Below are positions 6,170 through 31,189 of a DNA stretch of 38,574 bases, piece after piece (positions within the stretch are counted from its first letter, which is position 1; the number at the start of each line of letters is the position of its first letter). Source of the stretch: Actinomycetota bacterium (lineage in GTDB: Bacteria > Actinomycetota > Actinomycetes > Nanopelagicales > Nanopelagicaceae); NCBI GenBank assembly GCA_009924185.1, contig RFSC01000002.1, positions 1 through 38,574 of the forward strand, in the 5' to 3' direction. The translations under genes and the position numbers were made by a program. Below the pieces are notes generated by a model. It saw only the letters and a program-made list of their open reading frames with translations. It had not been told where the DNA came from and made no database searches.

Positions 6170-7328
6170 TATTGCCGGCATGGAAACGCTCTTTTCATTG
6201 CCTGATGAGTACCAAGCGCTAAGAGATAGCGTTAGATCTCTAGCTGACAAAAAGATTCAACCATTTGCTCATGATGTTGATGCGCAGGCTCGGTTTCCAC
6301 AAGAAGCATTTGATGCCCTGCAAGCTGCTGGATTAGCGGCTGCGCATGTGCCAACTCAGTATGGTGGCGAGGGTGCTGATGCACTTGGCGTGGTCATCAT
6401 TATTGAAGAGGTCGCGAGAGTTTGTGCTTCTTCCTCTTTGATTCCTGCAGTAAATAAGTTGGGATCAGTTCCATTAATGCTTGGTGGAAATGAAGAGCAG
6501 AAGAAGAGATGGCTTACACCTTTGGCGCAAGGAAAAGGTTTTTCTTACTGCCTCTCAGAGTCAGAGGCAGGTTCAGATGCCGCCGGGATGAAGACCCGCG
6601 CGGTTCGCAAAGGTGATGGTTGGGTATTAAATGGCAGCAAAAAGTGGATTTCACATGCCGGATTCTCTGAGTACTACACAGTATTGGCATCTACTGATCC
6701 AGAAAAAGGATCAAAAGGAATTACCGCCTTTGTAGTTGAAAAGAGTGATCCTGGTGTTTCATTTGGCGCTCACGAAAAGAAGATGGGCTTTAAGGGATCT
6801 CCAACTCGAGAGGTTTACTTCGACAATGTAGAGCTGGGTGATGATCGTTGTATCAGTGAAGTTGGTGCCGGTTTTGGATTAGCGATGAAAACATTGGATC
6901 ACACCAGAATCACCATCGCAGCTCAGGCATTGGGAATTGCACAAGGTGCTTTTGAAGTTGCCACTAAATATGCTCATGAGAGAAAACAGTTTGGTAAGTC
7001 AATCTTTGATTTCCAAGCGGTTCAATTTATGTTGGCAGATATGGCTATGGAGATCGCAGCGGCCCGTCAATTAACTTACGCCGCAGCCAGCAAGAGTGAG
7101 TCTCTGACCGATGACTTAACCTTCTTTTCAGCCGCCTCCAAATGCTATGCAACCGATGTCGCTATGAAGGTAACTACTGACGCGGTTCAGGTGCTAGGTG
7201 GCTATGGCTATGTGAGTGATTATCCGGTTGAGCGAATGATGCGTGATGCCAAGTTAACTCAAATTTACGAAGGTACCAATCAGATCCAAAGATTGGTAAT
7301 GGCTCGCAACCTCAACTCTGTGCTGTAA
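6147..7328 (+). CDS. Acyl-CoA dehydrogenase (start may be 6180)
   Basis: YCLSESEAGSDAAGMKTRAVRKGDGWVLNGSKKWISHAG, ALGIAQGAFEVATKYAHERKQFGKSIFDFQAVQF, YEGTNQIQRLVMARNL. Confidence 0.96.
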   Translation: MRKRIQSSIAGMETLFSLPDEYQALRDSVRSLADKKIQPFAHDVDAQARFPQEAFDALQAAGLAAAHVPTQYGGEGADALGVVIIIEEVARVCASSSLIPAVNKLGSVPLMLGGNEEQKKRWLTPLAQGKGFSYCLSESEAGSDAAGMKTRAVRKGDGWVLNGSKKWISHAGFSEYYTVLASTDPEKGSKGITAFVVEKSDPGVSFGAHEKKMGFKGSPTREVYFDNVELGDDRCISEVGAGFGLAMKTLDHTRITIAAQALGIAQGAFEVATKYAHERKQFGKSIFDFQAVQFMLADMAMEIAAARQLTYAAASKSESLTDDLTFFSAASKCYATDVAMKVTTDAVQVLGGYGYVSDYPVERMMRDAKLTQIYEGTNQIQRLVMARNLNSVL

Positions 7329-7833
7329 ATCGAACCAGTATCTCTGCAGTAGCTGCAGCATTTACCTTTTGATCGTGTGGTTCATGAGGAACCTCTTCAC
7401 TAGATAGCTCACCGGGATAGACCAAAGCCACCCGCCAAGCCTTTGTTCGAGCTAAAGCGCGGTCATACGATCCGCCACCTTGTCCTAAACGATTTCCATT
7501 TCTATCAATGTGCAGCGCAGGCATGATTACAACATCAATCTCTCCGTTGAAAACCGTGCCATCACTGGTATGCCACTCCAAATCCTTATCCTCCAACATA
7601 TGTGGAGTTAGTACGGTCTTGCCAAGCCGCTGCAACTCTTGATTAAGTACTTTGGTATCTGGCTCAAAACCATAAGAAACATAAGTGGCAACCACCTGTG
7701 CCTGAGAAATTTCTTGGGTGGCCAAAAGATGTTGCCAGTCACTTTCCACCACTAAAAACTCTCTTTCGGCACGAAACCTTTTTCGCATCTCAGCTTTGAT
7801 GCGTTTAACCTCTTTTTTAGCGGTGATATCCAC
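7312..7833 (-). CDS. 5-formyltetrahydrofolate cyclo-ligase family protein
   Basis: DVVIMPALHIDRNGNRLGQGGGSYDRALAR matches the 5-FTHF cyclo-ligase motif. Confidence 0.93.
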   Translation of the reverse strand: MDITAKKEVKRIKAEMRKRFRAEREFLVVESDWQHLLATQEISQAQVVATYVSYGFEPDTKVLNQELQRLGKTVLTPHMLEDKDLEWHTSDGTVFNGEIDVVIMPALHIDRNGNRLGQGGGSYDRALARTKAWRVALVYPGELSSEEVPHEPHDQKVNAAATAEILVRFTAQS

Positions 7834-7866: not shown

Positions 7867-8790
7867 GTGAGCGAAACGATAAAACTCTCAGAGTTCGCCA
7901 ATGAATTGTTGGCGCTGGCAAAACCTCTTGCGGCATTTGATATGCCATTGATGGATGCACATGGCGCCACTTTGGCGGTTGATGTAACTGCAAATAACAG
8001 AACCCTTATGAAATCCGGCTCCAGAATTCGCTCAACTCAAATTGGATTAGCGGCCTCTGCAGGTCTAGATCATCTGCCGACCCGACCACAGCCGCGAGTA
8101 GTTGTTATCTCAGCCGGCGCAGATTTAGTTGAACCAGGATCCCCGTTGCGAGATAGGGAAGATGAGTATGAAACCAACTCCTGGCTTCTGACCACCGCAG
8201 TTAAGGAAGCAGGGGCGGTGGGTTATCGAGTGCACACGATTCCTGAAACAGCGGAACAGTTAAAAGATGTTGTCGAAGATCAATTAGTGCGTGCTGATCT
8301 AGTTGTGATCTGCGGAGAGAGCCATGATGATTCTTTTGCATTGATTTACTCGGTCTTGCAACAACTTGGTCAGGTTCGAGAGCTCACCCCGCTCATCAAA
8401 GGAACCGGCAAACATGCCTTTGGAAGTATTGGTCCTGACCGCACGCCGGTGGTAGTTCTGCCAGGTGATCCAATTTATGCCTACATATCTACCGAACTTT
8501 TTGTCCGCCCGATGATTCGCAGCATGTTGGGGTTGTATGACATTCATCGCCCGGTGATCAAAGCAAAATTAAAAAATGATGTAGTGGGCGAGATGGGCAA
8601 AACCTCGTTTGTGCGTGCGGTCTTATCTGATGAAGGTAGTGGCATGAGATCGGTTTCTGCTCTGGACAACCAAGAGGATCTCGTAACGCTCTCCGATGCG
8701 ACCGGATTGATAGTAGTTCCAGATTCGGTGTCAGCGTTAAGTAGTGGTGCCGAGGTTGAGGTATTGCTTCTGGAACGGCGCTTTAACTAA
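7867..8790 (+). CDS. Degenerate MoeA / gephyrin-like (Glp-like) protein
   Basis: 307 aa; MoeA-like N-terminus and core (PRVVVISAGADLVEPGSPLRDREDEYETNSWLL, VVVLPGDPIYAYISTELFVRPMIRSMLG), but missing the ~100-aa domain II region and canonical TSGGVSxGDxD, MKPGKP and PGNPVSA motifs. Confidence 0.85.
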   Translation: MSETIKLSEFANELLALAKPLAAFDMPLMDAHGATLAVDVTANNRTLMKSGSRIRSTQIGLAASAGLDHLPTRPQPRVVVISAGADLVEPGSPLRDREDEYETNSWLLTTAVKEAGAVGYRVHTIPETAEQLKDVVEDQLVRADLVVICGESHDDSFALIYSVLQQLGQVRELTPLIKGTGKHAFGSIGPDRTPVVVLPGDPIYAYISTELFVRPMIRSMLGLYDIHRPVIKAKLKNDVVGEMGKTSFVRAVLSDEGSGMRSVSALDNQEDLVTLSDATGLIVVPDSVSALSSGAEVEVLLLERRFN

Positions 8791-8799
8791 GCAATCTCT

Positions 8800-9372
8800 A
8801 TGGCACGAGTTTCTAGAAACCACTGGCCCTTGATTCTTAATGATGGGGAGCTCACCTTGCGCCCATTGCGGATTCGCGATCGCAGCTCTTGGTTAAGCAC
8901 GAGAAGAAGAAATCGGGAGTGGCTATCGCCATGGGAGGCCACCTCACCAATTGCAGAAGAGAACAAAAACCTACCCACCTATATAGAGATGGTGCAGATT
9001 CATAACAGAGAGGGTCGCGCGGGCCGGTCAATCTCACTAGCGATTTGGTTTGATAAAGAGTTAATTGGACAGATAACTCTGGGCGGAATCTCGTACGGTG
9101 CCTACCGAGGCGGGCACATTGGTTATTGGATTGACCAGAAATTCGCTAACAAAGGGCTCACAACACGAGCGGTCCGGGAGCTAACCAAGTATGGGATTGA
9201 GGAACTTGGTTTACATAGAATCGAAATTAATCTAAGACCTGAGAACATCGCATCAAAACGGGTTGCGGAAAAGTCAGGGTATGTTTTTGAAGGTTTACGT
9301 CCCCGATATCTACATATTGATGGTGCTTGGAGAGACCATCTTTGTTATGTAAAAGAAAATCCACGGCTGTAA
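8800..9372 (+). CDS. RimJ/RimL-like GNAT N-acetyltransferase
   Basis: LTLRPLRIRDRSSWLSTRRRNREWLSPWEAT..; GGISYGAYRGGHIGYWIDQKFANKGLTTRAVRELTKYGIEELGLHRIEINLRPENIASKRVAEKSGYVFEGL. Confidence 0.95.
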   Translation: MARVSRNHWPLILNDGELTLRPLRIRDRSSWLSTRRRNREWLSPWEATSPIAEENKNLPTYIEMVQIHNREGRAGRSISLAIWFDKELIGQITLGGISYGAYRGGHIGYWIDQKFANKGLTTRAVRELTKYGIEELGLHRIEINLRPENIASKRVAEKSGYVFEGLRPRYLHIDGAWRDHLCYVKENPRL

Positions 9373-9448: not shown

Positions 9449-10243
9449 GTGGGATCTGGTTTTATTTATTTAATCATCGTAGGGATGTGGATTGCTTATT
9501 TCCTGCCCCGTTGGATCTCCACCCATGAAGAAGTTTCCGGTCGCACGGTAGAAAAATTTGAAAAAACTATGAAGGTTGTTGGTGTTACCTCAGGTAATGC
9601 TGCACCGGATTATGAAGCTTTGTTGGAAAAACGGGAGCAACAGATTGCTAATCGCAGATTAACCTTTGCTGGCATCAGCGGCTTAACAATTTTGGTAACA
9701 GCCTTTGCTCTCTTTGGTCTAGTCTCAATTTCCGCCATTGCACTTCCAGTTTCTGCATTTGTACTGTATGTGGTTCATGCCAGACATCAGATGTTTTCCA
9801 TGCAAGAGGAGTTAAAGCGCGCTCAAGTGCATCAGCAGAGCATTAGCAAGCCAACCACTGGAAGATATTCAGAGTTAATTGCTCGAGCAAAAAGAGTTCA
9901 GACCACACTAAATATCTCTGAAGAACAGTGGACTCCGTTATCAGAACGAGTAGCCACCTACTCACAAGAGGTACAGAGCATTGTGATCTTGCCAAAGGGC
10001 AGCGCTGAGAAGTCCCGCGAAACATGGGAGCCAACTGCGGTGCCGGCACCAAGTTATGTAAATGCTGCCAAGGCTGCACCACAACGTCGCACCATTGATT
10101 TAACGGTTCCTGGCGCTTGGAGTGAGGCTCAAGAGAAAGCTATGCGGGAAGCAATGGCTCCGAAATCAAACCAAATCTTTGATCAGGAACAGGCAGATGC
10201 GATGGAAGAGCATCTGCGGCAATACCGAGCTGCTGGTCAGTAA
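9449..10243 (+). CDS. Three-TM actinobacterial membrane protein, GlpR-like (candidate receptor for the Glp-like protein)
   Basis: N-terminal TM GSGFIYLIIVGMWIAYFLPRWISTHEE, then two adjacent TM segments (residues ~70-110), then a hydrophilic tail; third gene of the moeA-like/rimJ-like/membrane protein cluster. Confidence 0.7.
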   Translation: MGSGFIYLIIVGMWIAYFLPRWISTHEEVSGRTVEKFEKTMKVVGVTSGNAAPDYEALLEKREQQIANRRLTFAGISGLTILVTAFALFGLVSISAIALPVSAFVLYVVHARHQMFSMQEELKRAQVHQQSISKPTTGRYSELIARAKRVQTTLNISEEQWTPLSERVATYSQEVQSIVILPKGSAEKSRETWEPTAVPAPSYVNAAKAAPQRRTIDLTVPGAWSEAQEKAMREAMAPKSNQIFDQEQADAMEEHLRQYRAAGQ

Positions 10244-30742: not shown

Positions 30743-31189
30743 ATGAGACGCAGGAAGTTAAAGCTGCGCTCGGCTCTGGAGGGATTTGCTGAAAAACGTG
30801 GAATCTCAACTCGGTTACTAATTCTTTTTATTGTTCTCTTTGGTGTTGCAGTTACTCTGGCACCGCCAACACAACATTACTTTGCACAGCGCGCGCAGAT
30901 CAGCGCATTGCAAGCAGATGTTGAATCCAACCGTAAAAAACTACAAGAGGCGCGTGCTGAGTTGCAAAGATGGCGGGATCCTGAGTACATAAAATCTCAG
31001 GCTCGTGACCGACTTCATTTTGTGTTGCCAGGGGAGCGGCAGTACATAATTCTGGGAGTCAATAATCAGGTTGATGATGGCACCTCAACCGCTGCACCAA
31101 TTAATCAAGATTTTCCTTTAGGCGTACCTTGGTACTCCCGAGTCATCTCCTCCATCACATCAGTTGGTGTCGGAGCGCAAAATCCATGA
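30743..31189 (+). CDS. FtsB/DivIC-family septum formation initiator
   Basis: One TM then coiled coil (ISALQADVESNRKKLQEARAELQRWRDPEYIKSQARDRLHFVLPGE); downstream of eno. Confidence 0.92.
   Translation: MRRRKLKLRSALEGFAEKRGISTRLLILFIVLFGVAVTLAPPTQHYFAQRAQISALQADVESNRKKLQEARAELQRWRDPEYIKSQARDRLHFVLPGERQYIILGVNNQVDDGTSTAAPINQDFPLGVPWYSRVISSITSVGVGAQNP

Follow-up and report, generated by a model that had tools for sequence, protein, structure and literature searches.

A Glp without domain II beside sepX in Nanopelagicaceae, probably a minimal division scaffold

Introduction

Which protein remains when a MoeA homologue has lost a whole domain, and what keeps it under selection? The question was raised by an open reading frame in DNA of a member of the Nanopelagicaceae, the freshwater acI lineage. 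The window, i.e. the whole stretch of DNA analysed, comprises 38,574 nucleotides (GenBank assembly GCA_009924185.1, contig RFSC01000002.1). The frame is intact, opens with GTG and encodes 307 aa (Table 1). A sequence-only reading had taken the product for a gephyrin-like, non-enzymatic descendant of MoeA with one domain excised. This description is supported by our analysis, with the exception that the repurposing was inherited from Glp, where it is already known, and that only the excision of domain II is new here. With domains I, III and IV retained, the protein is probably a minimal, catalytically dead Glp that remained a division scaffold after domain II had been lost.

Table 1. Positions of the glp locus features in the window, and of Moco gene clusters in three Moco-positive short-form genomes
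Feature	Position	Strand	Remark
5-Formyltetrahydrofolate cyclo-ligase (5-FCL)	7312..7833	-	invariable neighbour of the glp locus, in divergent orientation
Short Glp (307 aa), MoeA fold with domains I, III and IV but no domain II	7867..8790	+	
Deletion junction, residues A42-R45	7990..8001	+	~97 residues of domain II gone relative to the 404-aa sister form
Former catalytic loop, ICGESHDDSFAL replacing TSGGVSxGxxD	8308..8343	+	
LPGDPIYA replacing LPGNPVSA	8458..8481	+	
Hairpin region of domain IV, counterpart of the FtsZ/GlpR-binding loop in C. glutamicum Glp	8611..8664	+	contact residues not conserved
RimJ-like GNAT acetyltransferase	8800..9372	+	constant member of the glp locus, between glp and sepX
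SepX/GlpR, membrane receptor of Glp	9449..10243	+	NF050099 4.3e-30, under the model's curated cut-off
Moco cluster, G029 contig C3	about 26-37 kb		
Moco cluster, G067 contig C1	about 952-968 kb		
Moco cluster, G103 contig C1	about 777-792 kb		

Absence of domain II and identification as Glp

The absence of domain II, and with it of DNSAMDG, was borne out alike by Pfam, by alignment with a long sister form and by a structural model. Pfam domains were found for MoCF_biosynth (residues 80-218) and MoeA_C (232-302), and MoeA_N was matched by the last 24 model positions only. In the alignment with a 404-aa sister protein a gap falls between 'AVDVTA' (residues 37-42) and 'NNRTLMKSG' (43-51), so that in the short form 'LAVDVTA' is followed directly by 'NNRTLMKSGSRIR...', where the long sister forms continue from 'LAVDIRS' through 'TVALPPWDNSAMDGFAV...HIRKMGSDIN' to 'VGDLILTAGTQLN...'. 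The absent stretch, 'TVALPPWDNSAMDGFAV...HIRKMGSDINV', corresponds to about residues 46-145 of Corynebacterium glutamicum Glp, i.e. domain II, which in that protein is inserted in domain I (PMC10522489, from which the domain limits at the junction were taken). Nor did domain II turn up elsewhere: a transfer to another gene was considered and rejected, since neither the own genome nor most short-form genomes gave a MoeA_N match and the neighbouring genes belong to other families. The core motifs are changed as the sequence-only reading had described, with IKGTGKHAFG as a further altered motif besides those in Table 1.

The best NCBIfam model was Glp (NF045515; 1.1e-68, 231.9 bits), with actinobacterial MoeA second at 1.9e-47. 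The match to the Glp model starts at position 145 of 403, past domain II, leaving positions 1-144 largely unmatched, and the score stays under the curated cut-off of 475 bits, for which the loss of domain II is mainly responsible; as the cut-off is not reached, the protein is filed as a variant of Glp and is called short Glp in the following. An AlphaFold2 model built from 36 family sequences (pLDDT 87.4, pTM 0.87) had its best Foldseek matches in the PDB to two structures of C. glutamicum Glp, in complex with the FtsZ tail (8bvf, E 2.1e-26) and alone (8bve); Cnx1E, E. coli MoeA and the gephyrin E domain came later, with query-normalised TM values of about 0.8. In a tree of 307 columns, for which sparsely filled columns such as those of domain II were dropped, the Glp side (43 rows) was separated from MoeA (5 rows) with a support of 100/99, and short Glp fell on the Glp side. 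Of the Pro-rich hinges that join domains I and III, it carries hinge 2 (RPQPRV, conforming to RPxPRV) as other Glps do, a motif absent from MoeA paralogues; its hinge 1, PLAAFDMPL, is less distinctive. Short Glp is an orthologue of Glp itself.

Genomic neighbourhood and distribution

The earlier reading had missed the partner gene sepX/glpR, which starts 0.7 kb downstream of short glp with rimJ in between. The order glp-rimJ-sepX was found in nearly every related locus fetched, glp abuts rimJ in the short-form loci, and glp remains beside sepX in virtually all loci of two families, even where moaC and mogA have been removed. This constancy argues against a new function outside division, e.g. 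in small-molecule or nucleotide binding or in regulation, with the place in the locus kept by inertia. We consider such a function improbable, even though domain III has kept its fold and, in close relatives, a loop from the former active site has newly become conserved.

Within the family the gene is present in 117 of 120 genomes, and the deletion is lineage-wide: the short form (about 290-330 aa) occurs in 15 of 17 sampled genera, and a long form of 404-409 aa with domain II in g6 (G005, G020, G032 and the fragmentary G054) and g15 (G014). The intactness of the frame, already stated in the sequence-only reading, is backed by more than 100 intact short copies with the same junction, single-contig genomes included, and by dN/dS values of 0.04-0.08 (about 0.04 against near relatives), similar to those of neighbouring genes. 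Short Glp is under strong purifying selection, and sister genomes show no general decay of the gene. Given these copies and the dN/dS, the idea of a decaying pseudogene or an assembly artefact, to which a few interrupted MAG copies might lend some colour, has a negligible probability. Those copies, split by frameshift or stop (G092:C1:355667-356583, G074:C80:7870-8789 and G047:C172:8480-9381), are probably assembly errors, and real decay may have occurred in them.

Across the class (395 genomes), the forms outside the family were long among the matches listed, with one exception in family f39 (genomes of 1.5-1.8 Mb). There, genus g94 has a short form at the same locus, and the sister genus g95 combines a long Glp, degenerate at the active site, with a separate MoeA. 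The domain-II-less Glps of f39 are L187-L190 (G299, G475, G509, G521), and L211 (G308) was noted alongside. In the Glp tree the short label needs two changes, on well-supported branches and throughout the bootstrap range; the short clade of the family is supported by 100/100 and has g6/g15 as its sister group. A tree of FtsZ, RimJ and 5-FCL requires two changes as well. Since long forms are found all around, the two changes are read as two losses, and domain II was apparently deleted at least twice, the second time in the unrelated family f39. A single origin of all short forms was rejected, since well-supported branches of either tree call for two changes.

Relation to the Moco pathway

MoaA, MoaE and MoeA_N were not found in the own genome (68% complete) nor in the near relatives G017 (99%) and G062 (90%), and the window held no other Moco gene, as the earlier reading had noted. 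Among the 120 family genomes, 31 encoded MoaA, 30 a MoeA_N protein, 29 both and 88 neither, and 86 of these 88 Moco-less genomes have kept short Glp. A separate MoeA_N protein was present in 24 of 25 moaA-positive short-form genomes and belonged to a different clade from Glp in the three examples placed on the tree; short Glp was not encountered as the sole MoeA of a Moco-positive genome. Short Glp is independent of the Moco pathway. A Fisher test of form versus moaA was not relied upon, since the genomes do not represent independent samples.

These data also bear on the possibility that short Glp is still an active molybdopterin molybdotransferase without domain II, as the retained MPT-binding (MoCF) domain could suggest. 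Residues D59, T100, R137 and D142 (E. coli MoeA numbering) are physically missing, E188 is replaced by D and other residues are substituted. Together with the lack of Moco genes in the own genome and near relatives and with the separate full-length MoeA that moaA-positive genomes almost always have, this leaves an active enzyme with hardly any probability.

Where short-form genomes are Moco-positive, about 3-4 kb suffice to hold moeA, moaE and moaA, and a large PF00384 oxidoreductase is encoded within about 15 kb (Table 1), as though the pathway formed a compact island, perhaps a later acquisition. The single PF00384 matches seen in Moco-negative genomes, each of about 790 aa, are probably NuoG by length and ubiquity. 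The canonical MoeA L068 (G026, genus g13) is encoded in a 641-aa open frame, possibly as a fusion or with a long N-terminal extension.

The g6 and g15 genomes encode MoaA, MoaE and XDH-type molybdoenzymes, and MoeA_N was matched by long Glp alone; of these genomes, three are 99% complete. The long Glp of these genera keeps D59, T100, R137, D142, E188, D259, R350 and S371 of E. coli MoeA, several of which are the positions mutated in PDB titles. Immediately 3' of it are genes that we take, from their translated ORFs, to be moaC and, in g6, then mogA, as in many other actinobacteria; the g15 contig ends inside moaC. Judged by its active-site residues, long Glp of g6/g15 is apparently a competent single-copy MoeA. 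C. glutamicum, family f5 and genus g95 are intermediate, having kept domain II with a degenerate active site. L197 and L198 of f5 (1.4-1.7 Mb genomes) mark a transition from the long enzyme to the short form: both are long Glps with a badly degenerate site, lie directly next to rimJ and are accompanied by no second MoeA_N protein.

About 20 of 30 sampled genomes had a single MoeA_N match, and comparable positions fell in the glp locus; two of these genomes, from f5, are degenerate at the active site, and the examples from f9 and f20 are intact. According to a published generalisation, bacteria with Glp carry two or more MoeA copies, and Glp itself is no longer catalytic. This view is challenged by the single MoeA_N protein in g6/g15 and about 15 further sampled actinobacterial genomes, several of them with an intact active site, which suggests that the generalisation is not valid for all lineages.

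Potential interaction with FtsZ and SepX/GlpR

Contact between C. glutamicum Glp and the FtsZ tail is made by the domain IV hairpin, and GlpR binds with nanomolar affinity to a site on Glp overlapping that of the FtsZ tail (PMC10522489). Short Glp has not conserved the residues that contact FtsZ in the corynebacterial protein (M361, Y369, L370 and others): S and R stand at the positions of M361 and Y369, and the hairpin is shorter. Domain IV is the least conserved domain of short Glp, with 7 of 76 positions invariant, and domains I and III are much more conserved. Six residues of the former catalytic loop (G150, E151, D154, S156, F157 and L159) are invariant in 36 close relatives, giving a GExxDxSF motif that is not kept in basal genera, e.g. 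g10 and g13, and that could be a new contact site.

Such a pattern would fit a division protein bound to SepX/GlpR without direct FtsZ binding, in which domain IV has drifted and another partner is bound by the conserved face of domains I and III; its way of working would then not be that of corynebacterial Glp. We consider this unlikely, though to be taken seriously. A DVPDF-type FtsZ-tail motif was found in all short-form genomes checked, and the tail is kept in relatives as EDEIDIPDFMK or EDEIDVPDFMK types (the own genome, 68% complete, yielded no ftsZ). The contact residues also differ in the ordinary long Glps of f19 and f20, and M361 is kept in no other Glp of the comparison table, so that the residue-level test says little about FtsZ binding. 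The M361/Y369 signature of the FtsZ-binding loop was described for Corynebacteriales and is treated here as a corynebacterial feature. FtsZ binding by short Glp seems likely to have persisted. As hinge 2 and, in relatives, the FtsZ tail are kept, the receptor gene is adjacent and purifying selection is strong, we infer that short Glp is a SepX/GlpR-bound, FtsZ-associated scaffold.

Proposed origin and comparison with known systems

For the division scaffold that we favour, the following course can be proposed. The ancestral long protein probably combined a division role with molybdate insertion. After Moco synthesis had been lost or taken over by another MoeA, domain II, which is part of the active site and without known division contact, would have been excised at both of its junctions with domain I, moaC and mogA would have disappeared too, and the division half would have stayed under selection. 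In Nanopelagicaceae either the Moco loss or the deletion may have come first. The resulting short Glp would be a cytoplasmic dimeric scaffold docking on SepX/GlpR and on the C-terminal tail of FtsZ at the septum, and the change as a whole was probably one from a double-duty to a division-only protein. A wider scenario is offered more tentatively, at somewhat less than even odds: the ancestral actinobacterial Glp would have been single-copy and double-duty (glp-moaC-mogA-rimJ-sepX), as it would still be in many lineages, and streamlined lineages would have lost the enzymatic half at the level of both locus (moaC, mogA) and domain at least two times, with the ex-catalytic loop turned into a new binding motif.

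Short Glp shares with C. glutamicum Glp (Cgl0883; 8bve/8bvf; PMC10522489) the orthologous clade, the locus with rimJ and glpR, the fold of domains I, III and IV, the degenerate active site and the Pro-rich hinge 2, whereas only the corynebacterial protein possesses domain II, and its FtsZ-binding hairpin is longer and includes M361/Y369. The long Glps of g6, g15 and other Actinomycetes (L040-L043, L191, L196, L199) are orthologues with the same hinge, EDQLVRAD motif and flanking genes, but differ by domain II, an intact MoeA active site and an adjacent moaC (mogA). Common ancestry, the MPT-binding domain III and domain IV connect short Glp to E. coli MoeA, from which it is set apart by lacking domain II, the catalytic residues and, in its genome as sequenced, the Moco pathway. 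Gephyrin E domain and Cnx1E have a MoeA-derived scaffold fold as well, and that of gephyrin clusters a membrane receptor; unlike short Glp, gephyrin and Cnx1E have enzyme activity, domain II and a MogA (G) domain.

We found no mention of a Glp or MoeA without domain II in the open-access literature, and one paper describes the four domains as highly similar across all MoeA proteins. In short Glp, nature has carried out a domain deletion on a protein with a double history. Molybdate insertion requires domain II, but the function for which Glp is kept under selection does not. Short Glp defines a minimal Glp for binding studies, and moonlighting versus repurposing becomes testable between sister genera. 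Another likely division gene lies in the window at 30743-31189 (plus strand), after enolase; it encodes a small membrane protein that, by position and sequence, may be FtsB/DivIC-like.
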